Below are positions 6,001 through 22,237 of a stretch of DNA of 22,497 bases, one piece after another; position 1 is the stretch's first letter; every line of letters starts with the position of its first letter. The position numbers were made by a program, and so were the translations under genes. The notes beneath the pieces are model-generated. The model made no database searches. It was not told where the DNA came from and saw only the letters and a program-made list of their open reading frames with translations. Where the stretch lies: positions 1-22,497 of IMG/VR virus record IMGVR_UViG_3300017967_000237, one strand, 5' to 3'. Source of the stretch: a virus.

Positions 6001-9000
6001 ATTAACAAAAATAACCATGAAGTTTTTGACTTATGGGATGGTTATATTGATATAGAGTTTACTGAATTTCCTCCTTTCGACGAAGATAGTGACACAAGAT
6101 TCGGAGATCCAATCCAGCCTGTACCTAAATACAACTACTACGACGAATCTACACAACTTTTATCAGATAATGCATTTGGTGACACTGTACAAGATGTAAT
6201 CACCGGCGCAACTGCTGAAGTTATGTATTATCAAAGATTCTTTAACACGGTAAGATTGTATGTTAAAAATGTAACAGGAACTTGGTTAGCAGGAGGAAAT
6301 TTTGGAGAAGTTGGAGCAATTCAAAGGAATGCTAATGCTACTTTTAGAGGAGTATCGGATGTAGACAGAGTGATTGGTGAAATTGTAGCAACTTCCTTAA
6401 CATCAAATGACGTCGGTGAACAAGTAGGTAAACTTGTAGTTGTTCAAAATAGCGAAAACTTTGACGGTACAACACACACTTTAGACTATAATCCTCAGTT
6501 AACTAATGTAGAATATTGGCTCTATAAAGAAGTTGATATACTAGGCATTCCAAGAGAAGCAAGTGTTCCTACAACTACAAACAACGAATGGGATCAAGTA
6601 TTTAATTTACCAGCAGATGCAAACGGAACATCTCAAGATTATATTGAAGAAGGTTTAATATCAGTTTACGGTCAAACTGGTTCAGGAGAATACCAGTTAA
6701 TAAATCACTTTACTTTGCCAAATCGTGACAACTATACTCATATTGGTAACAGATTAAGATTTACTAAGAGGGACGACCTTTATACTCTGTTTGCTGCCGA
6801 AGATGGCAATGGAGATAAAAATGATACTACTGTACCTAGTGGTCTCAACTATGGCAAATTGCATATTATTAAGAAAGGTATAGAAGACGGAGTTGAGTAT
6901 ACTTGGGATATCGGCAAGGACAAAAATTATTTTGGAGAATTTAGTTCTGCTTCGGCATATAGTGAAAACAATATCGTTGTATACGATAATGCTTTGTATA
7001 GAGCAATTACTAATATTTCCTCAGGCTTAGCGTTTGATACAGCCGATTGGGAGATCTTAGACGGATCTATATCTCGATTAGGTTATGTTCCTACACCTGA
7101 AACAGTTAAACTACCAGGCGAAGCAATTTTTAGTCCAGAAAATGGAATTTTAGAATTTGTAAGAGACTTTGATGTAAACGATGCAGGTAATGTAATTGCT
7201 ACAACAACTTCTTTATTAGCAGATGATAGCACTACTCGTAACACAGTAGCAGTTTATAGAGAAGTAAACGGAAATTATACATTTAGCCAATCTATTTCTG
7301 CAGAATCTACTGACGGTCCGGGCGTCGGAGCAGAAGTAACTGCTACACTTGAAACTACAGGATCAGTAAAATTTATGGATGTTACTTCAACTGGAGAGTA
7401 TGAGGTAACTCCAACAGTTACAATTAGCGGCGACGGCGACGGCGCAACAGCCGTTGTTGAACTTACAGAAGATGGAGGCATAAGCAGACTTCTAGTACTT
7501 GAGCCCGGACTTGGGTATACAGTTGCTCCGATAGTGCAAATTGAAACTACTGATAGTACTGGCACAGGCGCTGTAGTTGAGGCAGTGTTAACCGGTAGTA
7601 GTGTAACTTCTTATAATGTTATAGAAAGCGGCTCAGGCTATAATCCTACAACAATAATAATTAGTATTATAAAAGATCCTACTGAAACTTCTGAAATTCT
7701 AGAAGAAGCAACAGCATTTCCGATTATAAAATTTGCTGTAAACGACATTCGCATAACTAATTCAGGAAGCAATTACACTCAGTCATTAACTACAGCAACA
7801 GTTGACCGAAATGTAGATGATACTGCTACGTCTGACGCAGTTATTTCACCAGTAATAGGTTTTGCAGTAGACTCACTTACACTTGTTAATGGTGGATACG
7901 GTTACGACCCAGAGTACACATCAGTAAGATTTGGTAATAATGTTGCCGACTTTGGCAACGGGAATGGAGCCTCAGCATCATTGTCTATAAACGAACGCGG
8001 AGAAATTGAGTCAGTTACACTTACATCTTCTGGCTCAGGCTTTATAGACATTACTCCGGTATCAACTTCAATACCTTTTGTACAAATTGTTGATTCTCGA
8101 GAAGAAGCAAATTTTGGCGATAGTATTAGTATTAGCCAAGATGGCAAATTACTTGCAGTTGGAGAAAGTTTTAATGATACAGATGGCAGTAATCGAGGAA
8201 AAGTTTACATATACAAACAGGTAAATGGACTATACGAACTTAATCAAACTCTATCAAGTTTTAACAAAGAACCAGGTGAAGGGTTTGGACACAAAGTTAG
8301 TTTTGATGGAAATCAACTTGCAGTTAGTAGTATTAATGCTGACGCAAAAATATTTACTACTATTGATTCAGAGACAACAACCTTTGATAATGGTTTAACT
8401 AATATTATAAAAACTTCAAGTAACACAGGAGTTGTTTATATCTATGAAAGACTAGAAGATAATCTTGTTTATGCAGATCAAATAGAATATAATAATCTAG
8501 ATAACGACCAAGTTAGACAATTTGGCGACACATTGCTACTCACTAATAATCATATATATGTAGGTATGCCTAAATTACAAAAAGGTGTTGATACAGTTAA
8601 ATTTGTAGACGGAGCATCAAACATATTGCGTGTTGACAATGCAAGAAGATTTAAATTAAACGAAAGAATTCAGTTTACATTTTTTGATGATTCTACAGAT
8701 GCACTTATAAATTCAGGTTTAGAAGAAAGCAAAGATTATTTTATAAAAGAAATTATAAACGATACAGATTTTACAATAAGCGAAACTCAAGGCGGATCTA
8801 TAAAACAGTTAACTACAAACACTGTTGCTAAATTTAGAGTATCCGCTAATCGTGCAGTCCAAGGTTTATTAATTGATTATCAAAGACCTATTAATGAGAA
8901 AAGTTGGAACATTCATAGAGAGCCGTACGCTAGTGTTGATGTTTCTAAATTTAGAGGAGCATTCCTATATAACACAAAGACTAACAAACTTCTTGAGCAT

Positions 9001-12000
9001 ATAGATATATTAGATCCAGTGCAGGGAAAAATTGCTGGTATTGTTGAACAAGAATTAGACTACAAATTATATTACGATCCTGCTCTTTATAACGTAATTA
9101 ACAACGAAGATGTACAAAATACAGAAAGTTGGGCAGAAAATTATGTAGGGAAAACTTGGTGGGATTTAAACTTTGTGCGTTTTTATAATCCGTATCAAGA
9201 CACTAGTATATTCCAGAGTAATTACTGGCAGACAATTTTTCCAGAAACTGAAGTACGTGTTTACGAATGGATAGAATCTACTTTAACACCTGACCAGTGG
9301 GACACAATTTCAGGAACAGAAGAAGCACCGTCTCAAGGAGTGTCGGGTACTACAAGATACGGAAACAGTTTTTACGTTAAAAAGAAAAAATACGACAGCG
9401 TTGCTCAAAGATTTACTAACAAATATTACTACTGGGTTGAAAATAAAACAACTATACCCAATGTTGAAGGACGTAATTTAACTGTAAAACAAATGACAGA
9501 TCTTATAACTAACCCTGCACAGCAAGGTTACAGATTTGTTGCACTTATGAAAGATAATAGATTTACAGTTTATAATTGTAACAATTTGTTTGAAGATAAA
9601 AATGTAGCAATTAATTTTAGATACTGGACAATAGACGATCAAGAACAAAACATACACAGTCAATATCAAATATTATCTGATGGTTTAGCAACAAGCAGAC
9701 CAAATAAAGATATTGAGAAAAAATGGTTTGACAGTTTAATAGGTTACGACGAGTTTGATCGTCCTGTACCAAATCCTATTCTTAGCGATAAGCAAAAATA
9801 CGGCATACAGTTTAAGCCAAGACAAAGTATGTTTAAAAATAGAGTAGAAGCCTTAAAACAAGTAATAGAAAGAGTAAACAGTGTTTTAAGTACTAGAATT
9901 ACTGTAGATGATTTCAATCTCAGTTCGTTATCTAGTTTTGATCCTGCTCCAACTGCATTTAGTCGACTATTTGATGTTTCAATAGAAACGTTTGACGAAT
10001 TACAATTTATAGGAACAGCAAATCTAACACCAGCAATTATCGAACCTGTAATAGTTGACGGTTCGATTACACGTCTTAATATAATAAATGCTGGTAGAGG
10101 TTATAAAACTCCACCGTCATATGAAATTAAAGGCAACGGCGAAGGTGCTGAATTTGAGTTTGCAATTGATTCTGTTGGAAAAATCATAAGTGCTAATGTA
10201 GTACAAGGCGGAAAAAATTATCAAGATAACACAACAATAGACATTCGCAAGTTTTCTGTTCTAGTAGAAGCAGATAGCACTAATCGAGGCCGCTGGGTTA
10301 TTTACAATAGAAACAGTGTTACAAACGTCTGGGAAAGATCTATTATTCAGCAGTACGATGTAAGGCAGTATTGGAATTATGCTGATTGGTATGCCGATGG
10401 TTACGGATTGTTTACAATAACTAATTTTGAAATAGACGAAAGTTATGAACTTACATCTTTAGATGCTCCTATTGGAACTGTTGTAAAAATTAACAATATA
10501 GGTTCAGGAGGTTGGTTACTACTTGAAAAGATTGCCAACGAAGACACTGATGATTACACAGTAAATTATAAAACCATAGGTAGAGAAAACGGAACAATAC
10601 AGTTTAGTCAAGACTTATACAACTTTATAGAAAGCAGAGTAGGATTTGATGCTACAAGTTTCGATGCAAGGTACTATGACAATCAACCTATAATAGAAAC
10701 TAGAATTATATTAGAAGCACTTAGAGGTAATATACTAGTTGATGAACTTGCAGTTGAGTACAATAAACTATTTTTTGCAAGCATAAGGTATGTCTTTGCA
10801 GAGCAATTATTTGTAGATTGGGCATTTAAAACCAGTTTTGTTAAAGCAATTCATAATGTTGGAGAATTAGATCAACGAGTAAACTTTAAGAATGATAATC
10901 TAGAAAGTTATGAAGATTATATTAAAGAAGTTAAGCCGTTTAAAACCAAAGTTAGAGAGTACAGAAGCAGTTATGATAAGTTAGATCCTAGTAACACGTC
11001 AGTAACTGATTTTGATTTACCACCAAGTTACAGTAGCATAGATGCTAAAATAATACCAGAAAGTATAATTGCTACAACAAACAGTTTAACTAATTTAAGT
11101 ATAACAATAGACGAATATCCTAAAAAGCATTGGAAAGACAATGTTGGATTTACAATTACCGATGTGCAAATTGCTTCACAAGGTTCTGGGTATACACAAG
11201 CACCAACAATTAATTTTCAAGGCGGCGGCGGCACAGGAGCCACTGCAAAAGCATTTGTATCTAATGGTAAACTTACAAAAATACGTGTAACTAATCCAGG
11301 TACTGGATATCTATCAGCCCCTAGAGTAATTATAAACGGAAGTTTAATAGAAGGCGGAGTAGAAGCCACTGCTTCTGCTATAATTGGAAATAGTCTTGTA
11401 AGAAGCACACATGTAAGGTCTAAATTTGATAGGGTTACTGGTAATTTTTATATAACAAATCTACAAGAAACTGAAAACTTTGTTGGTTCAGGAGCCACTA
11501 CTACATTTACACTTAAATGGCCTCTAGATCAAAAATCTAACAGGATGACAATATATGTTGACGGTATAGAAGCACTTAGAAGTGAATACTCGTTTAGTAA
11601 TGTTTCTGACAATTCAAAAAGTTATACTAGATATTTAGGAAGAGTTGATTTTGTCGAACCACCTAAAACAGGTGCAGCAATAGAGGTAATCTATTTTAGA
11701 GACATAGATATGCTAGATGCTCAAGATAGAATAAACCTATTCTACAATCCAACTACAGGAATGATAGGCAATGATGTTGCACAGTTAATGGATGGTATTG
11801 ATTATGGCGGCGTCGAAGTTAAAAGTTTAGAATTTGAAGGCGCAGCAGGCTGGGACACAAAGCCTTGGTTCTCAACACTGTGGGATACTTACGACAATAC
11901 GTTTGAAGATGAAATTTTTACGTTTGATGATTCAACTGTACAAGTTGTGCTATCAAAGCCTTTAGAGGAAGGCATATCCTATAACGTATATCTAGACGGT

Positions 12001-14307
12001 ATTAGAATTGATGATCCTTTGTATGACGGAAGCACTGTTACATCTAATCCTAATGCAATTATGCAAACACTAGTAGGTGACGGAATAACACAGACTCTTT
12101 ATATAGACAACCTAAAATTAGAGCCATATGACGAAACCGGCAACAATACTGGTCCTGATTTAACTATACAAGAAGGAACATCGACATTAATTATTAGAAA
12201 AGTTACATCTGATGGTAGTTTTGTACCAGATCCAACAAGTTATGACACGCAACTTTCAGGTGGAAATATTAATTATAGCACTGCTACTGGATTAAACGCA
12301 GAAGATATAATTGTTGATGGTGATGGATTTGTTACGCCAACAACTTCAAAAGGCCCCGAAGAATTAGTCCCTGGACAGATTGTAGACACTTTGGATATTA
12401 GAGTATATCAAAGAGACAGTGCAGGAGGCAGCGCAATCTTTAGTCAAGCATATATCACTGACGGAGTACAAACAGTGTTTGATCTAGGAGTTATTCCAAA
12501 CTCTAGCGATGCAATTTATGTAAGAATTAATAATCAAGAGATATCTCAAGATGATTATGTAGTTAACTATTCCGCAGGAACGCTAACTCTTAACACTGCT
12601 CCTGCAATCAATAATGAACTACATATATTAACACTTGGAGTTGCAGCAGAAAACATACTTGTTATAGATACAGTAATTGCAGATGGAAATACTAATGAGT
12701 TTGTTACTACTGTAGAATGGAGAGACAATTTAAGTAGTTTTGTAAATGTCAACGGAGTCCCTTCAGAAATACAACTTGTACAAACTGGAAGGAAAGTTGC
12801 AATTAGATTCCCAGAAGCAGTTGAGGCTGACGCACAAATTTTCTACGGCATTTTCTATACTGAAGAAACAAACTTTAGTCAAGTGAAGAAAGATTTCTTA
12901 GTAGGAGATGGATCAACGTCAACATTTGAATTATCTCAAGCACCGTTTAATCAATTGCCTCTTTCACATAAGATAGTTGTTCAAGTTGACGGTCAGATAC
13001 TAAATGCAGGATACAATCAAAAATTTGCTGTTACCGCAGTTAGGGAATATCAACTTAGATTGTATCAACAGCCTAACGTATCTCTTCTACCTAATCAAAT
13101 CGAAGCATATTTGAATGGCACTAAGTTAGAAGAAACTGTTGATTATAGATGGGATATTTTTAATACAAGTATAACTCTATTCTCTGGTGTAGGAACAACA
13201 GGTGATGTATTAGAAGTGTTTGTTATTGATGATGGAGAATATACTTTTGAGAACAACCAGGTAACATTTGTAAGTACGCCTCCTTTAGATTCTGAAATAC
13301 AGATTACACAGTTTAGCAATCATGATATACAAGAAATAGAGCGTGTTAATTATGATGTTGTTGAAAGAACAACTTTGCAAGTCGGTACTGAAGAATATCA
13401 AGAGTACCATTCACTTACAACAGGGTTGATCAAGTTGCGCAAGCCTGCTATAGATGCTCAATATGTTTGGGTAACTAAAAACGGTGTTCAATTAACTCCT
13501 AGCGTTGATTATATAGTATTAGAAGATAATCGTTATTTGAAAATTAAAAACGTTGCAGAGGACGATGTTTTAGAAATCATACATTTTAGTAATCCGTTTG
13601 TTTCAAAAGATAGTTTCGGTTTTAGACAGTTTAAAGACATACTAAATCGTACACATTATAAACGTCTTAACGACAATGTGCTGTTTGAATTAGCGCAAGA
13701 TTTAAACTGGTATGATCTTAGGATTGAAATTAGTGACGCTTCAGAACTTCCAGTTCCTAGCAAGCAAGATAATGTTCCAGGAGTTTTATTTGTTAATGGA
13801 GAACGAATAGAGTATTTTATTAAAGAAGGTAATACATTACGACAAATACGTCGAGGCACATTAGGAACAGGAGTACCTACAGTTCATCCTTCGGGCACAA
13901 AAGTAGAAAATCAAAGTATAAGTGAAAATATACCTTATAAAGATGAAATGATTTCTACAGTATTTGAAGCAGACGGAAACACTAATACTTTCCAACTAGA
14001 TTTTACACCAGAAAGTATTAATGATTTTGAAGTGTTTGCTGCTGGCAAGCGTCTTAGAAAAGAGTCTCTTGCAGTATTTGATTTAACAATTGATCAAGAT
14101 TCCCCAGAAGGAGACGTAATTCAGCCAGCAGAATTTTCATTAGAAGGAAACACATTAACTTTACTAGCAACTCCGGAAGAAAATCAAAAAGTAATTGTTG
14201 TAAGAAAACAAGGAAAGATTTGGACACCTCTAGGAGAATCGCTAAGTAATGTTGAAAATAACATTGGCAGATTCCTGCGCGGAGCAACAGTTGACTTGCC
14301 TGAATAA
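1..14307 (+). CDS. Giant modular virion structural protein / tail adhesin (5' partial)
   Basis: The frame is open from base 1 to the TAA at 14305-14307, giving 4,768 residues with the N-terminus missing. The TTG at 217 is only an internal codon, since the frame continues upstream without a stop. Residues are counted from base 1. Seen in order: Ig-like NG/DY modules (about 141-196 and 363-424), a Trp-rich block with HTHPWE (about 586-665), CBM5/12-like modules (887-934, 1144-1190, 1645-1680, 2311-2355), blades of a FG-GAP-type propeller (about 1548-2865) with inserted segments, GxGY repeats (2457-2690, 3353-3413, 3721-3799), a Trp/Tyr-rich block (about 3035-3300), and a C-terminal Ig-like array (about 3827-4738). 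No enzyme motif was recognised. Similar giant proteins occur in marine T4-like phages. A tail or baseplate-associated adhesin role is inferred from the modules and from the fibre genes that follow. A divergent baseplate-wedge protein (T4 gp7/gp10 position) is an alternative. Confidence 0.85.
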   Translation, partial: QEKTAVNQEPLFDIFDKDGYSYSDETLYEASTFQGNKIFSYKKGTGVSDTELGFALSYQNIENSGDILFDFNLLRESMSYQVDDADVTKNTDIGFLKKYQDRENFIYTNGWTKADFESQQSVIRQYVATTSQLNDFEIDVYKDAALLNDLWVRVYVNNKIQDQNADYTLTSGSSDRLFVTFNSDLNVDDVVLVKTRSATPKNSNGFYEFPYNLERNPKNENITQFTLGEVNDHVSSMIEDLNNFTGDFPGTSNLRDLGNLDGYGKKFIQHSGPINLPLYHITTKDGNVIKAIKQARYDYGKFKRNFLQTALNLGFDGPIKQHVDKVLGEMNRTKTDAMPYYFSDMLAYQSVKRTEYIVEDPGNVFFALTNFFTLTESSDTAVNVYLNGTQLLHGRDYTFNDEGFCIITAEKVADDVIELYEYESSNGSFIPPTPTKLGLYPKYEPQILFDDTYFADEPVKFIQGHDGSLVKAYDDYRDELLLELEKRIFNNIKQTLDPEIFDLYALQNSAHRTTGVSKTKIDNAMLSDFVQWLKIAGTPDYTTNEFYTDGNKFTYNYSRTTDPYGNRHAGFWRGIYKHFFDTDRPHTHPWEMLGFTIKPQWWEEVYGPAPYTLNNTILWEDLQNGLLKEPNKPIKVLNNFKRPGLLNYIPVDAQGRLVDPLQSGIAKNFNNSQASVSFKFGDIAPTEAAWRKSSEFPFSLITALLLNRPAKILGLLFDKNNIERNVAGQLVEKTTGKRIALTDLEFPNTCECPSRKYTSGLVNYIADYMYSNVNSYFDYIDNVKNIDNQIALKLAGFTDKSKFKLILDSRSPFNEGNVFVPEENYQIFLNKSSASEVVSYSGIIVEKSQLGYIVRGYDLNNPIFRTYDVIPSSADPVLRIGGVSEKFVNWNAGKQYVQGQVVKFTGEFYRVKEGHSSTNQFDGTKFIKLAELPIQGGATARRRKNFEKELKTIPYGTVFSDIQQVVDFMYGYEHWLIEQGFKFDNYNPEFNLIENFDLSIKEFLFWTTQNWSVGTVISVSPAASKLIFEKEYHAVDNIFDNFYDYSVYKTDGNILRPEFLELSRDGNEFTATEVDSADGIYALKVPIVQIEHVVLLDNKTVFNDVIYDPAPGYRQERIRVQGYRTDNWDGSLNIPGFIYDSAEVQNWQPYQDYALGDTVKYKEFFYSANEKVTGGSTFIARQWKRLDSRPEPKLITNLEYKTNQFADFYDLDTDNFDLEQQKFAQHLTGYQNRKYLQNIINDDVSQYKFYQGFIQDKGTRNSLDKLFDALSSANKESLDFFEEWAFKQGMYGATDGFTEVEYKLDETKFLLNPQPIELVNSIPPESTDLIYRILPFETYVKPEEYDHSPFPVNSSNSEFVKTSGFVHPDDVQAIVRTRNDVTGIDINTVSIGNYIWIGQDRLSWDVAKIVQKDYRIIDIADSLNDEIGLLVVYLNRSVKDDIKVGEIIGLYDVDDASGFYVVSRIENNIIVIENFITPFTVGLPRDGLVIGLESAKITSIDTLNNYAENFVENNDFIWLEDGLNQKVYSHKEVYQQKEILENPQTWQDFNYDAFGEAISTTSNNTVLAVGSPYYKLSENVSGVVNIYTRGSELNNWILTQTIEPQTNIFASVDATSLFGTSVAVSPDGKYLAVGSPNASKVLTQYKGDYSENTDYVTGEIVTYNDNLWKANIDIFSEIANIAYTSFDSYAQFAIDTDSTDLSLIVAGNYGLYQVETDHILVRAPADQYEGTEPGDTVVFRWNRYSTANLALTESQPFAGYYTPITADFISREGIGGSAVGHEIIEKVDNIFNIDNYTILPTVGDTVYTDTGSAEVVYVKTQETSLLLYVNNTNGVFANTGILFTADVPIGAYRDDFYNTSEKIGGYWYINTSTYFTTDVDDNIWSDTGRGLVYRDVLNLRGDDGDLGTPDTRSTPNYYYNIQDYLQDITVTNLNDQISFTTHLAYSGIFDTQEPVIPSNLWVFRSPKVLSDTLSVSDTFGFYLDQLGSLDITNSGYTFETINKNNHEVFDLWDGYIDIEFTEFPPFDEDSDTRFGDPIQPVPKYNYYDESTQLLSDNAFGDTVQDVITGATAEVMYYQRFFNTVRLYVKNVTGTWLAGGNFGEVGAIQRNANATFRGVSDVDRVIGEIVATSLTSNDVGEQVGKLVVVQNSENFDGTTHTLDYNPQLTNVEYWLYKEVDILGIPREASVPTTTNNEWDQVFNLPADANGTSQDYIEEGLISVYGQTGSGEYQLINHFTLPNRDNYTHIGNRLRFTKRDDLYTLFAAEDGNGDKNDTTVPSGLNYGKLHIIKKGIEDGVEYTWDIGKDKNYFGEFSSASAYSENNIVVYDNALYRAITNISSGLAFDTADWEILDGSISRLGYVPTPETVKLPGEAIFSPENGILEFVRDFDVNDAGNVIATTTSLLADDSTTRNTVAVYREVNGNYTFSQSISAESTDGPGVGAEVTATLETTGSVKFMDVTSTGEYEVTPTVTISGDGDGATAVVELTEDGGISRLLVLEPGLGYTVAPIVQIETTDSTGTGAVVEAVLTGSSVTSYNVIESGSGYNPTTIIISIIKDPTETSEILEEATAFPIIKFAVNDIRITNSGSNYTQSLTTATVDRNVDDTATSDAVISPVIGFAVDSLTLVNGGYGYDPEYTSVRFGNNVADFGNGNGASASLSINERGEIESVTLTSSGSGFIDITPVSTSIPFVQIVDSREEANFGDSISISQDGKLLAVGESFNDTDGSNRGKVYIYKQVNGLYELNQTLSSFNKEPGEGFGHKVSFDGNQLAVSSINADAKIFTTIDSETTTFDNGLTNIIKTSSNTGVVYIYERLEDNLVYADQIEYNNLDNDQVRQFGDTLLLTNNHIYVGMPKLQKGVDTVKFVDGASNILRVDNARRFKLNERIQFTFFDDSTDALINSGLEESKDYFIKEIINDTDFTISETQGGSIKQLTTNTVAKFRVSANRAVQGLLIDYQRPINEKSWNIHREPYASVDVSKFRGAFLYNTKTNKLLEHIDILDPVQGKIAGIVEQELDYKLYYDPALYNVINNEDVQNTESWAENYVGKTWWDLNFVRFYNPYQDTSIFQSNYWQTIFPETEVRVYEWIESTLTPDQWDTISGTEEAPSQGVSGTTRYGNSFYVKKKKYDSVAQRFTNKYYYWVENKTTIPNVEGRNLTVKQMTDLITNPAQQGYRFVALMKDNRFTVYNCNNLFEDKNVAINFRYWTIDDQEQNIHSQYQILSDGLATSRPNKDIEKKWFDSLIGYDEFDRPVPNPILSDKQKYGIQFKPRQSMFKNRVEALKQVIERVNSVLSTRITVDDFNLSSLSSFDPAPTAFSRLFDVSIETFDELQFIGTANLTPAIIEPVIVDGSITRLNIINAGRGYKTPPSYEIKGNGEGAEFEFAIDSVGKIISANVVQGGKNYQDNTTIDIRKFSVLVEADSTNRGRWVIYNRNSVTNVWERSIIQQYDVRQYWNYADWYADGYGLFTITNFEIDESYELTSLDAPIGTVVKINNIGSGGWLLLEKIANEDTDDYTVNYKTIGRENGTIQFSQDLYNFIESRVGFDATSFDARYYDNQPIIETRIILEALRGNILVDELAVEYNKLFFASIRYVFAEQLFVDWAFKTSFVKAIHNVGELDQRVNFKNDNLESYEDYIKEVKPFKTKVREYRSSYDKLDPSNTSVTDFDLPPSYSSIDAKIIPESIIATTNSLTNLSITIDEYPKKHWKDNVGFTITDVQIASQGSGYTQAPTINFQGGGGTGATAKAFVSNGKLTKIRVTNPGTGYLSAPRVIINGSLIEGGVEATASAIIGNSLVRSTHVRSKFDRVTGNFYITNLQETENFVGSGATTTFTLKWPLDQKSNRMTIYVDGIEALRSEYSFSNVSDNSKSYTRYLGRVDFVEPPKTGAAIEVIYFRDIDMLDAQDRINLFYNPTTGMIGNDVAQLMDGIDYGGVEVKSLEFEGAAGWDTKPWFSTLWDTYDNTFEDEIFTFDDSTVQVVLSKPLEEGISYNVYLDGIRIDDPLYDGSTVTSNPNAIMQTLVGDGITQTLYIDNLKLEPYDETGNNTGPDLTIQEGTSTLIIRKVTSDGSFVPDPTSYDTQLSGGNINYSTATGLNAEDIIVDGDGFVTPTTSKGPEELVPGQIVDTLDIRVYQRDSAGGSAIFSQAYITDGVQTVFDLGVIPNSSDAIYVRINNQEISQDDYVVNYSAGTLTLNTAPAINNELHILTLGVAAENILVIDTVIADGNTNEFVTTVEWRDNLSSFVNVNGVPSEIQLVQTGRKVAIRFPEAVEADAQIFYGIFYTEETNFSQVKKDFLVGDGSTSTFELSQAPFNQLPLSHKIVVQVDGQILNAGYNQKFAVTAVREYQLRLYQQPNVSLLPNQIEAYLNGTKLEETVDYRWDIFNTSITLFSGVGTTGDVLEVFVIDDGEYTFENNQVTFVSTPPLDSEIQITQFSNHDIQEIERVNYDVVERTTLQVGTEEYQEYHSLTTGLIKLRKPAIDAQYVWVTKNGVQLTPSVDYIVLEDNRYLKIKNVAEDDVLEIIHFSNPFVSKDSFGFRQFKDILNRTHYKRLNDNVLFELAQDLNWYDLRIEISDASELPVPSKQDNVPGVLFVNGERIEYFIKEGNTLRQIRRGTLGTGVPTVHPSGTKVENQSISENIPYKDEMISTVFEADGNTNTFQLDFTPESINDFEVFAAGKRLRKESLAVFDLTIDQDSPEGDVIQPAEFSLEGNTLTLLATPEENQKVIVVRKQGKIWTPLGESLSNVENNIGRFLRGATVDLPE
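421..1272 (+). repeat. Two N-proximal Ig-like 'NG..L..DY' modules in the giant protein
   Basis: Two segments (421-588 and 1087-1272) share one pattern: a short V-x-V-Y strand, an N-N/N-G turn, a hydrophobic residue, then D-Y, and a closing strand beginning D-D-V (YVNNKIQ...ADYTL...VDDVVLV and YLNGTQL...RDYTF...ADDVIEL). The same pattern recurs many times at the C-terminal end of this protein. Such modules are common beta-sandwich spacers in phage fibre proteins. The fold is inferred from the pattern. Confidence 0.6.
1756..1995 (+). other. Trp/Pro-rich conserved-looking block of the giant protein
   Basis: This stretch contains HTHPWEMLGF, then PQWWEEVYGPAPYT, a LWEDL motif, KRPGLL and IPVDAQGRLVDPL. 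Its density of Trp, Pro and His is unlike the Ser/Thr/Asn-rich modules around it and suggests a compact, constrained domain. I associate the pattern with the large structural proteins of marine phages from memory only. No function is known to me. The HxH pair could bind metal, but nothing else supports that. Confidence 0.45.
2659..2802 (+). other. CBM5/12-like (chitin-binding type 3-like) module A
   Basis: Residues 887-934 read VNW-N-x-G-K-x-Y-V-x-GQVVKFTGEFYRVKEGH and then FIKLAEL. This matches the type-3 chitin-binding pattern: leading Trp, Tyr, G-x-x-V-x-(Y/F), aromatic-x-(A/V). In the known family the exposed aromatic residues bind polysaccharide. Sugar binding here is inferred. Confidence 0.5.
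3430..3570 (+). other. CBM5/12-like module B
   Basis: Residues 1144-1190 contain NWQPYQDYALGDTVKYKEFFYSAN followed by QWKRLD in shortened spacing, the clearest copy of the pattern: W, Y, Y, L-G-D-x-V-x-Y, F-F-Y-x-A, and a final W-x-x-L. It resembles module A but is separated from it by about 210 residues of unrelated sequence. Confidence 0.55.
4933..5040 (+). other. CBM5/12-like module C, inside the first propeller insertion
   Basis: Residues 1645-1680 contain YKGDYSENTDYVTGEIVTYN and then NLWKAN, fitting the Y..G-x-x-V-x-Y...W-x-A pattern. The copy is short and lacks a clear final W-x-x-L strand. It begins just after the LAVGSP strand of propeller blade 2. Confidence 0.45.
5401..6306 (+). 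repeat. Pair of G-D-T-V / L-Y-V repeats inside the first propeller insertion
   Basis: Segments 5401-5523 and 6172-6306 share a pattern: GDTV, a Gly-Ser/Ala turn, A-E-V-V/M-Y, then LLLYVNNTNGVF in the first and VRLYVKNVTGTW in the second. This is a short beta module that recurs in phage structural proteins. The copies are about 770 bases apart and diverged at DNA level, so the duplication is old. Confidence 0.45.
6931..7065 (+). other. CBM5/12-like module D, between propeller blades
   Basis: Residues 2311-2355 contain FGEFSSASAYSENNIVVYDN, then ALYRA, and end in DWEILDG. This matches Y..x-x-x-V-x-Y...Y-x-A...W-x-x-L. It sits between blade 3 (ending near 6905) and blade 4 (starting near 7123), so it looks like a loop insertion in the propeller. 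Confidence 0.5.
7369..8070 (+). repeat. GxGY glycine-rich repeat cluster 1 (between propeller blades)
   Basis: Several turns of the pattern G-x-G-Y-(T/D)-x-x-P-x-(V/I)-x-I, then G-x-G-A-x-A, then x-G-x-I-x-x-(L/V) occur here: PTVTISGDGDGATA, GLGYTVAPIVQI, GSGYNPTTI, GSNYTQS, GYGYDPEY, GNGASASL and a last GSGF. Repeats of this type are known from bacterial surface and phage tail proteins and probably form stacked beta arches. The cluster lies between propeller blades 4 and 5. Confidence 0.6.
9103..9900 (+). other. Trp/Tyr-rich conserved-looking block of the giant protein
   Basis: This stretch includes KTWWDLNFVRFYNPYQD, YEWIESTL, KYYYWVENKTTIP, LTVKQMTDLI, QQGYRFVALM and NRFTVYNC, then an amphipathic stretch (RVEALKQVIERVNSVL). 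It is not repetitive and is richer in aromatic residues and predicted helix than the flanking parts, so it looks like an independent domain. I do not recognise a family or function. Confidence 0.4.
10057..10240 (+). repeat. GxGY glycine-rich repeat cluster 2
   Basis: One and a half turns of the GxGY repeat: VDGSITRLNIINAGRGYKTP, then EIKGNGEGAEFEF, IISANVVQGGKNY. It is the same repeat type as at 7369-8070 and 11161-11397, here preceding an unrelated Trp-rich stretch (RQYWNYADWYADGYG). Confidence 0.55.
11161..11397 (+). repeat. GxGY glycine-rich repeat cluster 3
   Basis: This is the most canonical copy. It reads GSGYTQAPTINFQGGGGTGA, then TAKAFVSNGKLTKIRV, GTGYLSAPRVIINGS and EATASAI. Four consecutive GGC codons (11221-11232) encode the Gly run. 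It lies just before the C-terminal Ig-like array. Confidence 0.65.
11479..14214 (+). repeat. C-terminal array of about eight to ten Ig-like 'GDG..xxF...NG..L..DY' modules
   Basis: Successive modules follow a (V/A)-x-DG-x-T-x-x-F-x-L start, a (V/I)-x-(V/L)-(N/D)-G turn, D-Y, and a closing strand before the next module. Starts are near 11479 (YVDGIEA), 11920 (YLDGIRI), 12067 (VGDGITQTL), 12439 (TDGVQTVFDL, RINNQEI, DDYVV), 12655 (ADGNTNEF, NVNGVPS), 12883 (GDGSTSTFEL, QVDGQIL), 13045 (YLNGTKL, VDYRW), 13405 (TKNGVQL, VDYIV) and 13957 (ADGNTNTFQL). A different unit at about 13760-13940 carries FVNGERIEYF and RRGTLGTG. Modules like these make long shafts in phage fibres. Exact borders are uncertain. 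Confidence 0.65.
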
Positions 14308-14310
14308 ATA
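14303..14310 (+). promoter_or_regulatory. Late-promoter-like motif AATAAATA upstream of the 14330 gene
   Basis: AATAAATA matches the T4 late-promoter consensus TATAAATA at seven of eight positions. It overlaps the stop codon of the giant gene and lies 19 bases before the next ATG. Recognition by a gp55-type late sigma factor is inferred from the motif and position, and from two matching copies at 18776 and 21220. Confidence 0.5.
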
Positions 14311-14329
14311 CACAGTGAGAGATTAAAAA

Positions 14330-14932
14330 ATGGATAATATTCAAGAAAATCAAGGTATTTTAGTACAAGGTCATATAAAAATACATGACCCAGTGTCTAA
14401 AGAAGTTATAATTAACAAACGCAATGCAATTCATTACGAAAACATGAGTATATCTCTTGCTGAAAGTCTTGCAAATGCAGGCGAAGGCTGGATTTACGAA
14501 ATGAGTTTTGGAAATGGCGGCACGTCTGTTGATCCTACAGGAATAATTACATATCTTACTCCTAATAGTACAGGTACTAACGCTAGTTTATACAATCAGA
14601 CATTTACAAAAGTTGTAGATGACAGAAGTGTAAACAACATTGATCCTGTTAGAAATAAAATAGAAACAAGGCACGTAAGCGGAACAAATTATACAGATAT
14701 ACTTGTAACTTGTTTGTTAGATTACGGAGAACCAAGTGGACAGCAAGCGTTCGATACAGCAAGCGATGCAGACAGTGCTTATGTTTTTGATGAATTAGGT
14801 TTAAGAAGTTATTCAGCATCGGGTTCAGGCCGTTTACTTACACACGTAATTTTCCACCCTGTTCAAAAATCCTTGAATAGATTAATACAAATTGATTACA
14901 CTGTAAGAGTGCAAAGTTTGTCAGGGGTATAA
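14330..14932 (+). CDS. Virion structural protein of unknown function, 200 residues
   Basis: The ATG at 14330 follows a purine-rich but weak ribosome site (GTGAGAGA, 14315-14322). The product is soluble, with no signal peptide, membrane segment or coiled coil visible. Its middle contains FGNGGTSVDPTG, IITYLTPN and LYNQTF, and its C-terminal half has LLDYGEPSGQ, YVFDELGLRSY and LTHVIFHPVQKSLNRLIQIDYT. The tightly patterned C-terminal half suggests a single compact domain rather than fibre repeats. I recall similar proteins beside fibre genes in marine T4-like phages but know no function. It lies 22 bases after the giant gene and 12 bases before the collar fibre, so a connector or accessory role for these appendages is a reasonable guess only. 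Confidence 0.8.
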   Translation: MDNIQENQGILVQGHIKIHDPVSKEVIINKRNAIHYENMSISLAESLANAGEGWIYEMSFGNGGTSVDPTGIITYLTPNSTGTNASLYNQTFTKVVDDRSVNNIDPVRNKIETRHVSGTNYTDILVTCLLDYGEPSGQQAFDTASDADSAYVFDELGLRSYSASGSGRLLTHVIFHPVQKSLNRLIQIDYTVRVQSLSGV

Positions 14933-14944
14933 CAGGAGATATAA

Positions 14945-16972
14945 ATGGCATACGAAGTTAATTTTACAGATCAAGCAAACAAAGGTAGCATAATAGTAGA
15001 CGACAATACTATTAACCAGGAGACAAGTGTTGATCTTCCAGGAAGAAACAGTACTGCATATGGTACTAGTATTGCTGAAAATTTCCTACACTTATTAGAA
15101 AATTTTGCTAACACCTCAGAGCCAGAAAATCCTGTTGAAGGACAACTTTGGTATGATAGTAGTCCTGGTGTAAATCAACTTAAAGTTTATGATGGTACCG
15201 CTTGGGCAGCAGCAGGCGGCCTAAAAAAAGCAATAGCAGAACCAGATGTTAATAATTCAGTAACAGGTGACTTATGGGTTGATACTGATAACCAGCAACT
15301 ATATTTGTATTCAGGTTCTGGTTGGGTATTAGTAGGTCCTAGTTTTTCAGATGGTCTAAACACTGGCGCACGACCTATACAATTAACTGGAACAGATAAT
15401 ACAGATTATAGTGTTTTAGTTATTGAAGTTGAAGCACAACCTGTAGCAATTATTTCTACATCTACGTTTACACCTAAAGTTGCTATATCAGGTTTTGCTA
15501 GTCTTAAACCTGGTATAAATTTAACAACAAGAGATATTACAGGTGCTGGAGTTGCAAAATTTAACGGTACATCAGAAAAAGCAGAAGCACTTGTAGTAGG
15601 AAACACTACAGTTCCTTCATCTAACTTTTTAAGAACAGATCAAACAAGTATAACAAATTTTCCTATTAGAATAAAAAATAATACTGGTTTGCAGTTAGGT
15701 ACTGCATCACAGTTATCTATTGGAGTAGAAGGCGAAGCCGGAGTTATTACACACAACACAAGCGGCGCACAAATTAATATTAGAACAAATGATGGCGGCG
15801 TAACAAAGAATGTTCTTACCTTAGACGGAACAAATGTAGGTATAAACAACGGTGCTCCTGACCAGGCACTTGATGTAATAGGAAATATTCAAACAGATAG
15901 CAATTTATTAGTCGACGGCGCAACACAATCCGATACATTTAGTAGCGGCGCAGTAGTTATTAAAGGCGGCGTCGGCATTGCAAAAAACTTGAATATAGGC
16001 GGCAATGTAACAATAGAAGGCGGAACTCAAGTTAAAAATTTAACTCCTGATTTAAATAATCAGCGCATTTTAGGAACTGAATTAATTAGATGGCAAGCCG
16101 TTTATGCAAATACATTTTTTGGGAATCTAGTAGGAGATATTACTGGAACGATTACAGGTAAATCAACTAGCACTGATAAACTAGCCAGTAAGACAACTTT
16201 TAGAATGTCAGGAGATGTTTCTGCGCCTGAATTTACATTTGATGGACAAACAGGCGGAACAACAAAAACATTTAGCACATCTATTAGCAATAGTTTTATA
16301 GCAACCAAGCCAAGTCTTGGTTCTACTGAAGGTGATGACGAAATATTAATCAATAGAACTACAGGCACAACAGGATTATATAAAGTCAGTAGACGAGCAT
16401 TATTGTCTAGTGTTCCTACTAACCCTCCAGGAATTATTTTACCGTTTGGAGGAACAGTTATACCAGAAGGTTGGCTATTATGTGACGGTAGAGAAGTATT
16501 ACAAGTGTTATATCCAACACTATTTGAAGTAATTGGGTTTAACTTTAAAGACGCATCAGGCATTTCAGACGGCGGCACAGAATACTTTGCACTTCCAGAT
16601 TTTAGAGGTAGATTTGCACTAGGTCTTGATAACATGGGAGGCACTGCTGCTGATAGAGTAACTGGTCTTGGTGCTAGTGAACTAGGTAATGCAGGCGGCG
16701 CAGAAGATGTTAGTATAGGTATTGATAATTTGCCTGATCATGAACATGATATGAGGGCAGACAATGGAGATCAGTTTTATGCAATTAGCGATTTAACAAA
16801 AGGTCCTACTTCAGATCCAGAATCAATTGTGTACGATGCTCCTACAGGAACAGGTGTTGGGCAAGCACTGTCAACAAGCGGAGGCGTTTTAAATCCTACG
16901 CTAGGAGATGCAGTTAATGTTATGAATCCGTTTCTTGCTGTAAATTACATAATTTATCTCGGAGAAGTTTGA
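14945..16972 (+). CDS. Tail fibre protein with phage tail-collar domain, 675 residues
   Basis: The start is ATG at 14945 behind a good ribosome site (AGGAGA, 14934-14939). Residues 1-130 are the N-terminal module shared with the next two fibres: ENF-x-x-LLENF, then two turns of G-(Q/D)-LW-x-D...L-x-(V/L)-Y. The middle has fibre-shaft motifs (GGVGIAKNLNIGGNVTI, then RILGTELIRW and YANTF). Residues about 494-560 form a tail-collar domain: GGTVIPEGWLLCDG, YPTLFEVIG and LPDFRGRFALG (from residue 550), a close match to the family. The end, NPFLAVNYIIYLGE, is typical of collar fibres. In T4 the collar domain belongs to the short tail fibre gp12, which binds cell-surface sugars. A receptor-binding role here is inferred. 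The stop overlaps the next start. Confidence 0.9.
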   Translation: MAYEVNFTDQANKGSIIVDDNTINQETSVDLPGRNSTAYGTSIAENFLHLLENFANTSEPENPVEGQLWYDSSPGVNQLKVYDGTAWAAAGGLKKAIAEPDVNNSVTGDLWVDTDNQQLYLYSGSGWVLVGPSFSDGLNTGARPIQLTGTDNTDYSVLVIEVEAQPVAIISTSTFTPKVAISGFASLKPGINLTTRDITGAGVAKFNGTSEKAEALVVGNTTVPSSNFLRTDQTSITNFPIRIKNNTGLQLGTASQLSIGVEGEAGVITHNTSGAQINIRTNDGGVTKNVLTLDGTNVGINNGAPDQALDVIGNIQTDSNLLVDGATQSDTFSSGAVVIKGGVGIAKNLNIGGNVTIEGGTQVKNLTPDLNNQRILGTELIRWQAVYANTFFGNLVGDITGTITGKSTSTDKLASKTTFRMSGDVSAPEFTFDGQTGGTTKTFSTSISNSFIATKPSLGSTEGDDEILINRTTGTTGLYKVSRRALLSSVPTNPPGIILPFGGTVIPEGWLLCDGREVLQVLYPTLFEVIGFNFKDASGISDGGTEYFALPDFRGRFALGLDNMGGTAADRVTGLGASELGNAGGAEDVSIGIDNLPDHEHDMRADNGDQFYAISDLTKGPTSDPESIVYDAPTGTGVGQALSTSGGVLNPTLGDAVNVMNPFLAVNYIIYLGEV

Positions 16973-16974
16973 TG
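16961..16974 (+). promoter_or_regulatory. Ribosome site and TGATG stop-start overlap deciding the 16972 start
   Basis: GGAGAA at 16961-16966 lies five bases before an ATG at 16972-16974. That ATG overlaps the TGA (16970-16972) of the upstream fibre gene. This favours the ATG over the TTG three bases earlier and suggests translational coupling. The resulting N-terminus, MSYKLNKTDG, aligns with MAYEVNFTD and MAYQIDRYN of the sister fibres. Confidence 0.75.
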
Positions 16975-18774
16975 AGTTACAAACTAAACAAAACAGACGG
17001 AAGTCTACTAGTAGATTTAATTGACGGATTTGTTGACACAGATTCTACAAACTTAACTTTAATAGGTAGAAACTATTCAGGGTTTGGGGAATTTTTAAAT
17101 GAAAATTTTATAAAACTATTAGAAAACTTCAGTAACACAGTTGCACCTGGATCTCCTATTACAGGTCAATTATGGTATGATACTTCTGAAAGTAGATTAA
17201 AAATCTATAATGGTGAAGAATTTATAGTAGCAGGTTCTCCTTTTGTGCAACCTTCGCAACCTCAAATGGTTGCAGGAGATTTATGGCTGAATAATCTTAC
17301 AAATCAGTTATATTTCTTTGACGGGTCTGAATTAGAACTAGCAGGACCCATTTATACTGCGCAACAAGGAAAATCAGGATTTGAAGTTGCGGACATTCTT
17401 GACACCCAAAGTCGTACTAGAAGGGTACTAAAATTATGGATAGGTGCTCAATTAGTTGCAGTTATAAGTAACTTAACATTTACGCCATCGGAAGCAGATG
17501 AAATCGGTGAAATACCAGGCGAAATTAAAAAGGGAATTAATTTAGTAGATGAAACAGGATTTCAATTTTACGGCACTTCTAAATATTCTACAAGTTTAAT
17601 TACAGATGCAGGCGTTGTTAAAAACGCAAGTCAATTTTTACCTGCAGACGAAGACGGAACTACAGTAGGATCTTTAACAGTCCAAAACTCAAACGGTATA
17701 ACAATTGGATTAAGCCAGAACAACATACAGAAAATTGTTGGATCTACTGTAGTTGTAGAAAACCAACTTTTAGATCACGATTATAAAATTAGAGTAAGAA
17801 GTTCAGGCGCAGGCTCTTTGATTACAGATGCAATAACAGTAAAAGCAGCAGATCAAAGGGTGGGTATATTTCAAGGCAATCCTAGTTATAATTTAGATGT
17901 TACTGGTGATTGCAGAATTACTGGAGATCTAACTGTAGAAGGTGATGCAACTTATATTGATGTTACAACACTTAGAACTGAAGATAAAAATTTAGAACTT
18001 GCAATTACTTCAGATGGCACTGTATTAACAAAACTTCAAGTTGACGGCGCCGGAATAATAGTTAAAAATGATGCAGACGATATTAGTTTGTTGTATCAAC
18101 ATGCAAACACTAGTTGGTCAAGTACTGAAAATTTAAATATTGCAAGCGGAAAAAGTTATTTAATAAACGGTACCGATGTTTTAAATAATACAACTTTAGG
18201 GGCTACAGTTGTAAATTCCAGTTTAACAAATTTTGGCCTTGTTACAGAATTACAAGTAGACGATATAAATTTAAATGACTCGCAAATTACCACTACTGAC
18301 GCACTCATTATTGATAGTGCAGGACCAATCACTATCAATAATCAAAAAATTCAAGGTGTTGCAGATCCGGCTTCGGCACAAGATGTTGCAACAAAAAATT
18401 ATGTAGATACACAAATAGATAGTGAGCCAGTTGTTTTTAGTTTAGATATAACCGGACTTAATACAACACAAATAGCAACAGTTATAGATGAATTGTATCC
18501 TGCAAGCCAAAAAGAAATAGGCACTACTGCTACTATACATACTGTGTCGTATGTTGTAGAAGTTACTGGCATAGATGTAGCAGGTGCTACAAATAAATCT
18601 TTTGTTCCTGTAAGAAATGCAACAAATACTGGCACTGAATCTGTATTACAAGATGTTGATTTTGATTCTGTATCAGGAACAGGAACACTTGTAGCAACTA
18701 GAGGTAGATTGAGATTTACAGTAAACAGTTCAAATGTATGGCAGTATACTAGCGACTTAGGAACAAGTGTATGA
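16972..18774 (+). CDS. Tail fibre protein with shared N-terminal module, 600 residues
   Basis: Residues 1-130 repeat the attachment-like module of the flanking fibres (LNENF, LLENFSNT, then GQLWYDTSES and GDLWLNNLTNQLYFF). The centre has shaft motifs (YNLDVTGDCRITGDLTVEGD, NLELAI), and residues 459-481 carry the common phage fibre motif KIQGVADPASAQDVATKNYVD. The last 120 residues (from about SLDITGL to the end) show no domain I recognise: no collar, no chaperone or peptidase-like tip. The start is set by the TGATG overlap. A virion fibre is well supported. Whether it binds a receptor itself or forms a shaft for another protein cannot be told from the sequence. Confidence 0.85.
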   Translation: MSYKLNKTDGSLLVDLIDGFVDTDSTNLTLIGRNYSGFGEFLNENFIKLLENFSNTVAPGSPITGQLWYDTSESRLKIYNGEEFIVAGSPFVQPSQPQMVAGDLWLNNLTNQLYFFDGSELELAGPIYTAQQGKSGFEVADILDTQSRTRRVLKLWIGAQLVAVISNLTFTPSEADEIGEIPGEIKKGINLVDETGFQFYGTSKYSTSLITDAGVVKNASQFLPADEDGTTVGSLTVQNSNGITIGLSQNNIQKIVGSTVVVENQLLDHDYKIRVRSSGAGSLITDAITVKAADQRVGIFQGNPSYNLDVTGDCRITGDLTVEGDATYIDVTTLRTEDKNLELAITSDGTVLTKLQVDGAGIIVKNDADDISLLYQHANTSWSSTENLNIASGKSYLINGTDVLNNTTLGATVVNSSLTNFGLVTELQVDDINLNDSQITTTDALIIDSAGPITINNQKIQGVADPASAQDVATKNYVDTQIDSEPVVFSLDITGLNTTQIATVIDELYPASQKEIGTTATIHTVSYVVEVTGIDVAGATNKSFVPVRNATNTGTESVLQDVDFDSVSGTGTLVATRGRLRFTVNSSNVWQYTSDLGTSV

Positions 18775-18775
18775 A

Positions 18776-18783
18776 GATAAATA
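18776..18783 (+). promoter_or_regulatory. Late-promoter-like motif GATAAATA upstream of the 18814 gene
   Basis: GATAAATA begins two bases after the stop of the 600-residue fibre and ends 30 bases before the next ATG. It matches the T4 late consensus TATAAATA at seven of eight positions and is identical to the copy at 21220. It would start a transcription unit with the 485- and 302-residue genes. Confidence 0.55.
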
Positions 18784-18813
18784 CTATTAATGTATTTCAG
18801 GGGTTAGACTAAA

Positions 18814-20271
18814 ATGGCATATCAAATTGATAGATACAATAATACCTTATTAACTTCGGTCGAAGATGGTACAATTGACCAAACTACCGATCTTAAGTTT
18901 ATAGGTAAAAACTACGCAGGATACGGAGAAATCCAAAACGAAAACTTCCTGTTTCTGCTAGAAAACTTTTCCGGAGCAACACAACCACCAAGACCGCTGT
19001 CAGGGCAGTTATGGTTCGACAGTGCAAACAGCAAATTAAAATTTTATGATGGTAGTCAATTCCGCACAACAGGCGGCGCAGAAGTAAGTCCTACACAGCC
19101 AAGCGGACTTTCAGAAGGCGATTTTTGGTGGAATACAACTAATCAACAGTTATTTGCGTTTAATGGTACAGATTTCACTTTAGTCGGTCCCCAATCTGCA
19201 CCAGGCGCAGGCGTAACACAGATGCAGAGTGCATCTGTTACTGATATTGATGACAACACTAGAACAATTATTAAAGGTATTATTGACGATGTAGTTGTTA
19301 TTATTATTTCTGATGAAGAATTTACATTAAGTGTTGCTTCAGCCATTCCAGGTTTTAGTCTAGTCAAGAAAGGTGTTACAATGGTTAACACTGACGCTAA
19401 CGGCATTACATCTGGAGGATTTTTATATTGGGGTACAGCCTCTAACGCTACAAAACTTGGAGGTATTGATGCTGCCGATTATATTACATCATCCGATCCG
19501 TCATTTACTAGTCTAGTATCGTTCGTTGATGCTGGCATATCTATTGGTAATTCTGAAGATTTAAAAATATATATCGAAAACGACAATCAAGCGGTAATAG
19601 CAAATGAAGTAGGCAATTCTAATTTAATTAAATTTAAAGCAAATAACGGCAGTGGTGTTAATCTACATAGTTTAAGTATTACAGCAACAGGAATGCAACC
19701 AGCATCAGACAGCACTTTTGATTTAGGCACATCAAGTATAAAGTTTAGAACAGCCTATGCTGATACTTTTGACGGCACAGCAACAGTAGCAGAACAACTT
19801 ACCTTAGCCAGTGTTTTATACCAGCCAAGTTTGGGTGCGGTAAATAACACTGTTGCACTACGAGACAGTAGCGGTGACATTACAGCAAACGAATTTATTG
19901 GTGTAGCACTTAGTGCAAAATTTGCTGACTTAGCAGAAATATACGAAACGGACGCAGAATATCCAGTAGGAACTATAATTTCAATTGGAGGCGAAAAAGA
20001 AGCAAGAGCAGCAAAATTAGGTGAAGTAGTTGTTGGAGTAATATCTGAAAATCCTGCTTACTTAATGAACGCAGAAGCAAAAGGACAAGCAATAGCACTA
20101 AAAGGCAGAGTTCCTGTAAGAGTACTAGGACCAATTTCAAAAGGTCAGCCAGTATATATTGGTGAAGCAGGAGTAGGAAGCACTATTGCTTCTTCTGGGC
20201 TAGTTGGAGTTGCACTCGAAACTAACAACGATGCAGACGAAAAACTAGTAGAATGCATCTTAAAGGTATAA
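18814..20271 (+). CDS. Tail fibre protein with peptidase-G2/decoration-like C-terminal domain, 485 residues
   Basis: Residues 1-130 are the third copy of the shared fibre N-terminal module (NENFLFLLENFSG, GQLWFDSANSKLKFYDG, GDFWWNTTNQQLFAF). The middle has a LGTSSIKFRTAYADTFDGT element matching the collar fibre's GTELIRWQAVYANTFFG. The C-terminal domain, about 368-485, starts AKFADLAEIYETDAEYPVGT and continues with VVVGVISENPAYL, GRVPVRV, KGQPVYIG and GLVGVALE. The first half resembles the autocleaving chaperone domain of some fibres and neck appendages (peptidase G2 type). The second half resembles capsid-decoration beta folds. I cannot identify catalytic residues, so cleavage is not claimed. 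The ribosome site is weak (CAGGGG), and a late-type motif lies upstream. The next gene follows after 10 bases. Confidence 0.85.
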   Translation: MAYQIDRYNNTLLTSVEDGTIDQTTDLKFIGKNYAGYGEIQNENFLFLLENFSGATQPPRPLSGQLWFDSANSKLKFYDGSQFRTTGGAEVSPTQPSGLSEGDFWWNTTNQQLFAFNGTDFTLVGPQSAPGAGVTQMQSASVTDIDDNTRTIIKGIIDDVVVIIISDEEFTLSVASAIPGFSLVKKGVTMVNTDANGITSGGFLYWGTASNATKLGGIDAADYITSSDPSFTSLVSFVDAGISIGNSEDLKIYIENDNQAVIANEVGNSNLIKFKANNGSGVNLHSLSITATGMQPASDSTFDLGTSSIKFRTAYADTFDGTATVAEQLTLASVLYQPSLGAVNNTVALRDSSGDITANEFIGVALSAKFADLAEIYETDAEYPVGTIISIGGEKEARAAKLGEVVVGVISENPAYLMNAEAKGQAIALKGRVPVRVLGPISKGQPVYIGEAGVGSTIASSGLVGVALETNNDADEKLVECILKV

Positions 20272-20281
20272 AGGACAAAAC

Positions 20282-21190: not shown

Positions 21191-21219
21191 TCTAATTAAT
21201 TTTTCTTGCTTTCTGCAAA

Positions 21220-21227: not shown

Positions 21228-21253
21228 TATAAGTATTTTATTAGGAAACGTTT

Positions 21254-22168: not shown

Positions 22169-22181
22169 GCCTTATCTTTCC

Positions 22182-22210: not shown

Positions 22211-22237
22211 ATACGTAGTTTATTATAGGAGTACCTT

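Follow-up and report, generated by a model that had tools for sequence, protein, structure and literature searches.

In phage T4, the baseplate proteins gp10, gp11 and gp12 come from one mRNA, have a common fold and lie together on the baseplate rim, as described in PMC3004832. The same source gives 23% identity between the N-terminal 200 residues of gp10 and gp9, and places these two proteins at different sites of the baseplate, so a common N-terminus need not mean a common site. In phage CBA120, assemblies held by conserved N-terminal domains are established, with TSP1-3 on TSP4, and the same is proposed for the long-fibre proteins of RaK2 on gp528, as reported in PMC8825819 and PMC10253068. 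Here we describe a viral DNA stretch of 22,497 bases, part of the genome of a large uncultured phage (positions 1 to 22,497 of IMG/VR record IMGVR_UViG_3300017967_000237, hereafter the window; all listed genes are on the + strand) that contains three consecutive fibre genes, P1 (14945..16972, 675 amino acids (aa)), P2 (16972..18774, 600 aa) and P3 (18814..20271, 485 aa). These are tandem paralogues with a common N-terminal module and different C-terminal tips. P2 is counted from its ATG, with the mechanical list of open reading frames beginning one codon earlier, at TTG. Directly upstream is a 200-aa protein (14330..14932) that we name adaptor for its putative role; the phrog_11259 profile covers its residues 6-195 (E 9.6e-71). 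On balance, we lean towards a fixed, constitutive three-fibre baseplate cassette, made of specialised fibres that are carried together and are not swapped spares.

The modules, as delimited by alignment, span residues 1-137 of P1 (14945..15355), 1-133 of P2 (16972..17370) and 1-132 of P3 (18814..19209). When the first 135 residues are aligned globally, the three pairs show 55/126, 53/128 and 56/134 identities, with scores of 246, 244 and 300, far above those of 200 shuffles per pair (means of about -13, standard deviations of 12-13, top score 32.5). BLASTP E values range from 7e-37 to 7e-43 in the two pairs that include P2 and from 2e-29 to 6e-32 in P1-P3, and a tblastn search with P3 on its own record returned all three genes (E 0, 6e-41 and 2.4e-33). 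An initial annotation of this DNA had read a common module from the letters and proposed to align the N-termini, and the alignment confirms the homology. The two G-(Q/D)-(L/F)-W turns it described are also present in all three proteins, as GQLW/GDLW in P1 and P2 and GQLW/GDFW in P3. As for the extent of about 130 residues, the alignment does hold there, but the similarity runs on, to residues 325/324 (P1-P2), 296/292 (P1-P3) and 209/215 (P2-P3). The region past residue 230 is not significant by itself (best E 0.014 in a three-sequence database), and in distant relatives mostly about 47-80 residues near the N-terminus are still recognisable. The range first assigned to the unit, 14945-19236, stops within P3; the unit itself extends to 20271 and includes the neighbouring gene at 14330-14932.

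Next, we looked at relatives. With the window added to the best 80 viral loci of a search with the P3 N-terminus, three module genes are present in 65/81, and the remaining 16 have a first module frame that begins at most 1,521 nt from the locus start, so these loci may be cut off upstream. The set was enlarged by two more searches, one using a mixed alignment with the Phosso protein at its head and one using the adaptor, and loci were classed by profiles for the adaptor, the module and the three tips. This gave 232 viral loci with a module, 182 of them distinct by exact protein sharing and 136 of these complete arrays. A complete array starts with the adaptor and ends with a closed module gene, having a P3 tip or, with any tip, 3 kb beyond; the rule favours arrays ending in P3, and one locus (L239) that ends in an unlabelled module gene near the contig end was excluded. 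The exact order adaptor-P1-P2-P3 is kept in 112 of the 136 arrays, or 114 when two with a broken adaptor or P1 frame are included. The first module frame lies -33 to +16 nt from the end of the adaptor frame in 136/136, a set chosen to begin with the adaptor.

The trio arrays were then compared module by module, using 106 of the 112 (six with an open adaptor frame were dropped). Every module is matched best by the same-position module of another genome (318/318) and none is closer to a paralogue of its own genome (0/318), with a median of 117 bits to own paralogues versus 248 to the best orthologues. Thinning to 72, 29 and 21 dissimilar arrays leaves 216/216, 87/87 and 63/63 same-position matches, so near-copies are not behind this result. 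A module tree built with a quick method (143 rows, 130 columns) splits the 16 sampled trio P1 modules from those of P2 and P3 by a starred branch (99), while the P2 and P3 groups, at 85 and 87, stay below the star. Inheritance is vertical and position-specific: because modules group by position across genomes, the triplication is old and its copies have been kept separate. Such position-specific modules favour distinct partners or positions, short of proof.

In terms of tips, divergence is faster than in the modules, and most so in P2. Median pairwise identities across the 106 arrays, in the order P1, P2, P3, are 0.62, 0.61 and 0.69 for the modules, P3 having the slowest-diverging one, and 0.43, 0.34 and 0.50 for the tips, with 0.73 for the adaptor. 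The 55 pairs of arrays with adaptor identity >0.93 contain no swapped tip, their lowest tip identities being 0.53, 0.66 and 0.65; the 98 pairs with adaptor identity >=0.90 have P2 tip identities down to 0.44. All these trio comparisons presuppose tips that match the P1-P3 tip profiles; a wholesale replacement of a tip can therefore be visible only in the non-trio arrays.

These arrays include nine complete ones where an additional module gene separates P2 from P3 (and one more with a split P3 frame), two with two P3-type genes after P2, one with five genes, four with an unlabelled second tip, and the orders P3-M-P3 (two), M-P3 (two) and P1-P3 (one). In three arrays (L154, L155 and L170) the second gene has a P2-type module with a different, shorter protein of 350-464 aa behind it. 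The modules of the genes inserted in four- and five-gene arrays are nearest to P3 by BLAST; in the module tree the P3 group takes in five of them, and the other nine make up a separate clade (95*). Across the non-trio arrays, 58/63 labelled modules fit their tip class, and 20 modules have no tip label. The module is portable. In L176 (14567-17819), the inserted fourth fibre gene shows shaft matches of a fibre-like kind; behind it come a phrog_13209 protein, a protein with a weak match to 2OG-Fe(II) oxygenases (below cut-off) and a 152-aa protein; these genes may travel as a unit. In two other loci the P1 frame is split into two open frames (L021, 6022-8043; L214, 3196-5216), either by a true break or by a sequencing error.

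The adaptor was found in 60 phage records, and the named-phage tally comprises 17 loci from 16 phages. A module gene lies directly 3' of the adaptor in 12/14 fetched named-phage loci with an adaptor match, namely those of Atu_ph07, Phosso, PA5oct, 7t3, fENko-Kae01, 121Q, XbC2, pEa_SNUABM_19, RaK2, Vibrio 2.275, SCTP-2 and CBB. The other two, XacN1 and Stenotrophomonas CM1, have a longer adaptor-like protein and no module gene in the fetched stretch. Atu_ph07 and Phosso have a single module gene, with a P3-like tip, after the wedge and giant-protein genes; the order in Phosso is gp25-gp6-giant-adaptor-module gene, and Atu_ph07 is alike, with two small genes before the adaptor. In PA5oct (NC_071039) the order is wedge, giant, small gene, adaptor and two module genes, of which one encodes a Gp10_C tip (gp358) and one a P3-like tip. 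A literature search on phrog_11259 returned no paper.

Homologues of the adaptor and of the module protein are present in virions. The PA5oct record has notes of electrospray ionisation tandem mass spectrometry (ESI-MS/MS) for the adaptor, the giant protein and the three proteins after the adaptor, that is, both module proteins and the product of the next gene. In CBB, virion mass spectrometry gave 2 unique peptides/12.7% for the adaptor CBB_230 and 12 peptides/53.3% for the module protein CBB_231, and six short fibres, not assigned to a gene, are visible under the baseplate (PMC5259590). PA5oct infection is described as needing lipopolysaccharide plus a second receptor such as type IV pili (PMC6950013). 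This fits a joint use of different tips, and dependence on the module genes would be conjecture. In phAPEC6, the virion proteins gp250c and gp251c agree in size and order with what is expected (PMC7247149); they were not used as evidence.

Two observations concern RaK2 and XacN1. With its annotated start, the gene of RaK2 gp065 (L246, 20491-21723) shares about 107 nt with the adaptor gene. The family profile begins to align only at residue 43, so translation probably starts about 42 codons further downstream. This gp065 (ORF065) is the RaK2 module protein, and gp098, a baseplate receptor-binding protein according to PMC10253068, was set aside as a module homologue. In XacN1 (L085, AP018399.1, 7498-16554), six consecutive genes, ORF237-ORF232, match the module and are candidate fibre proteins; the paper on XacN1 reports that tail fibres were not seen and that homologues of them were not found (PMC5852040).

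An AlphaFold monomer model of the module (58 sequences) has a mean predicted local distance difference test score (pLDDT) of 79.3 and a predicted template modelling score of 0.50, with 61-65 pLDDT for the N-terminal 40 residues. In this model a helix spans residues 37-50, the GxLW motifs are on hairpin strands (66-92 and 104-123), and further strands lie at 136-172. Residues 52-87 align weakly with a piece of CBA120 TSP3 (root-mean-square deviation (rmsd) 1.0 Å over 36 residues, Z 3.5) and with the phage protein Mtd (2.3 Å over 36, Z 2.5), and residues ~86-135 with the collagen XVIII trimerisation domain (Z ~3, rmsd 3.6-6.0). Together with the trimeric nature of TSP3 and Mtd, these weak matches lead us to read the GxLW units as trimerising hairpins, with the ENF..LLENF helix region as the likelier docking part. 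The initial annotation took the whole shared region as a base; its hairpin part may, on this weak evidence, be a trimerising shaft and not a docking surface. The hints are weak because a chito-oligosaccharide deacetylase fits residues 52-127 about equally (Z 3.2) and the highest VIA-align rows are coronavirus nsp9 chains on residues 131-207 (Z 4.5), not taken as kinship. Every VIA-align row has Z < 5 for both the module and the P2 model, Foldseek against PDB gave nothing at E <= 0.001 for either model, and profiles against PDB sequences gave nothing for the three N-terminal 300-residue stretches, nor for P3.

The tips are, as first described, collar, unrecognised and G2-like. P1, whose orthologues occupy position 1, has the Collar domain PF07484 at residues 496-557 (16430..16615; E 9.8e-15, 54.7 bits against a cut-off of 24, above the gathering score), and its profile also matches the T4 short tail fibre 1ocy (E 3.6e-4). 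Gp10_C (PF21939) is not among the P1 Pfam matches at E <= 0.1, with Collar there instead; it is found in the PA5oct relative gp358 (E 9.8e-24). In P3, the profile of the autoproteolytic Peptidase_G2 / IMC domain (PF11962) matches a stretch at residues 328-421 (19795..20076) with 28.5 bits, passing the cut-off of 25 and covering only profile positions 8-100 of 228. P2 contains an ATKNYVD hinge region, known in other fibres, at residues ~455-488 (18334..18435, approximate as it follows profile numbering), which matches the tail fibre gp9 chain 23sh_r (E 7.6e-5). Its C-terminal domain (residues ~485-600, 18424..18771) has no Pfam family above cut-off and no PDB chain with Z >= 5 among those compared, and the AlphaFold2 monomer model of P2 is poor (mean pLDDT 62.4). 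Pfam revealed no depolymerase domain in any of P1-P3.

Phage fibres of this kind are usually homotrimeric, and in the three-fibre cassette that we favour each of P1, P2 and P3 would form a homotrimeric short fibre. The first ~50 residues (G[RK]N..YGE..ENF..LLENF, with the predicted helix 37-50) would be the part that docks, on the rim of the baseplate and at or close to the adaptor and giant protein, the adaptor being a putative socket or neighbour, and the two GxLW hairpins would hold the trimer above this docking part. As each module type is tied to a gene position, three non-equivalent rim positions are probable, and all would be filled in every virion. The fibres may act on the cell jointly or in sequence, in the way T4 gp9-gp12 divide the attachment, pin and receptor roles. 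New tips would enter through an inserted fourth gene, through replacement of the second-gene tip or through occasional recombination onto another module type, and not through a reversible switch.

Several points weigh against this cassette. The searches started from proteins of the window and of its relatives and took the best 80 loci each, so their counts are not unbiased frequencies, and 22/136 complete arrays depart from the trio. Module and tip are not strictly linked, with five mismatches among the 63 labelled non-trio modules (L115, L117, L135, L149 and L163), such as a collar tip on a P2-like module in L149 and a P2-type tip on a P3-like module in L115. Distinct sites for the three fibres are probable from the sequence pattern, and vertical inheritance after an old one-site triplication, with no exchange, would also leave an equal pattern; type-specific positions in the 72 non-redundant arrays are few for P1 and P2 (2 and 3, with 8 for P3). 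The baseplate-rim location itself is one that we infer. In PHROGs, the module proteins of CBB and RaK2 belong to phrog_14394, a family categorised as "head and packaging", and in XacN1 the adaptor-like protein is far from the six module genes. Lastly, module similarity to T4 gp9, gp10 and gp12 is undetectable by sequence profile. As direct module homologues these proteins were set aside, since profile comparison against the single sequences came out empty (hhalign of 58 modules, probability 1.1% for gp10 and 0.2% for gp9).

The best alternative, although we consider it unlikely, follows the initial annotation in giving all three fibres one attachment site: any of the P1, P2 and P3 trimers would fit one kind of baseplate socket, so that virions carry mixed or alternative fibres and the host range is broader or switchable. 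In its favour are 18 module positions that are at least 90% common to the three types in the 72 non-redundant arrays, the portable module (inserted fourth genes, the three replaced second tips and the five mismatches) and the existence of phages with a single module gene. On the other side, modules are locked to position and not exchanged in trio arrays, which speaks against one shared site with alternative occupancy, and gene number and order are constant in most arrays. The comparison of gene number and tip identity across relatives that had been proposed now returns a predominant fixed trio and no swapped tips among the 55 close pairs, contrary to switching. Inversion or a diversity-generating template as a local switch was also rejected, as the repeats in 14200-22497 are only short, inverted ones reaching at most 17 nt (88%) and direct ones at most 38 nt (74%), a rejection local to the 22.5-kb record. 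The compact, co-directional genes suggest co-expression. What stands of alternative or mixed fibres on one module is that the proteins are probably assembled together, going by the PA5oct ESI-MS/MS notes, and that the module is portable; one site and switching find no support here.

A more doubtful possibility is a branched complex, where one member, probably P1 beside the adaptor, attaches to the baseplate and serves as the dock for the others. The CBA120 and RaK2 assemblies are a precedent, and the module aligns weakly and partially with CBA120 TSP4 (7rfo; Z 2.4, 77 residues, rmsd 6.5). However, all three proteins bear one kind of module, whereas the CBA120 organiser, as described, has extra XD domains; these were not recognised here by sequence search, a weak test, and phages with a single module gene need no organiser. 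Improbable, too, is a place elsewhere on the virion, as whiskers, neck or head fibres. The PHROGs category of phrog_14394 would suit it, and so would the hair-like appendages of CBB and Atu_ph07, whose make-up is unassigned (PMC5259590 and PMC6102473), but the genes lie near baseplate wedge genes in Atu_ph07, Phosso and PA5oct, and the Collar tip of P1 and the Gp10_C tip of PA5oct gp358 are both known from T4 short fibres and pins. Finally, a heterotrimer with one P1, P2 and P3 chain each in a shared N-terminal prism and three tips per attachment point would explain exactly three unmixed paralogues in most relatives, and is very improbable, with the single-module phages and tips that form homotrimers elsewhere speaking against it.

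Around the cassette, most of the upstream DNA encodes a giant virion structural protein of 4696 aa (217..14307, phrog_10938), which is a probable wedge-associated scaffold adjoining the fibre genes. Large virion structural proteins occupy the equivalent place after the baseplate wedge genes in Atu_ph07, Phosso and PA5oct. As this protein has two CBM_5_12 carbohydrate-binding stretches and an FG-GAP repeat, it may bind polysaccharide in its own right. There are 12 nt between the adaptor and P1 and 39 nt between P2 and P3, while P1 and P2 share 1 nt of stop and start (TGATG), and all genes point the same way. Purine-rich stretches upstream of the P1, P2 and P3 starts could be ribosome-binding sites. 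Promoter-like sites in 14000-22497 are at chance level (30 versus 27.0 +/- 6.0), as are terminator-like sites (3 versus 4.6 +/- 2.3), and the adaptor-P1-P2-P3 genes are likely co-transcribed. Downstream of P3, at 20282-22168, are two proteins of 302 and 304 aa for which Pfam, PHROGs and NCBIfam returned nothing at the thresholds used; a set of six window proteins was likewise without a family in NCBIfam.

No host is claimed, since nine relatives in genome assemblies sit in bins of conflicting phyla. These adaptor-bearing contigs (L252-L260), one of them 335 kb long, are in metagenome bins whose labels range over widely different bacteria and archaea, and are probably mis-binned phage contigs. 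One of them (L260) has frames of 200, 686, 622, 491 and 313 aa in the window's order.

If the three-fibre cassette is true, baseplate fibres in a widespread group of uncultured phages would have assigned addresses, and change would come through an added fourth fibre or a replaced tip, not through switching. The comparison also connects proteins mostly listed as hypothetical in the 60 named phage records, and brings in the six candidate fibre proteins of XacN1.

Compared with known systems, the cassette resembles T4 gp9-gp12 in having adjacent genes after wedge genes and a collar-type tip in the set. It differs in that all three proteins have a common N-terminus, the T4 tip order is not kept, and the module has no detectable sequence similarity to gp9, gp10 or gp12. 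The pairs CBB_230/CBB_231, RaK2 gp064/gp065 and 121Q 576/577 likewise have a phrog_11259 adaptor directly followed by a module protein (match over 47-77 residues), but these Rak2-like and related jumbo phages have one module protein and not three, another C-terminal part (phrog_14394) and a different gene neighbourhood. PA5oct gp357-gp360 shares the wedge gene, the giant protein, the adaptor and a Gp10_C-tipped followed by a G2-type (tip3-profile) module protein, with the difference that the module is detectable in only two of three fibre-size genes, over the first ~85-90 residues. Lastly, CBA120 TSP1-4 and the RaK2 long fibres, as described in PMC8825819 and PMC10253068, also join several receptor-binding trimers by conserved N-terminal domains at one baseplate. 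There, one XD-domain protein organises the rest and most tips are depolymerases, whereas the modules of the window are homologous and of equal rank.

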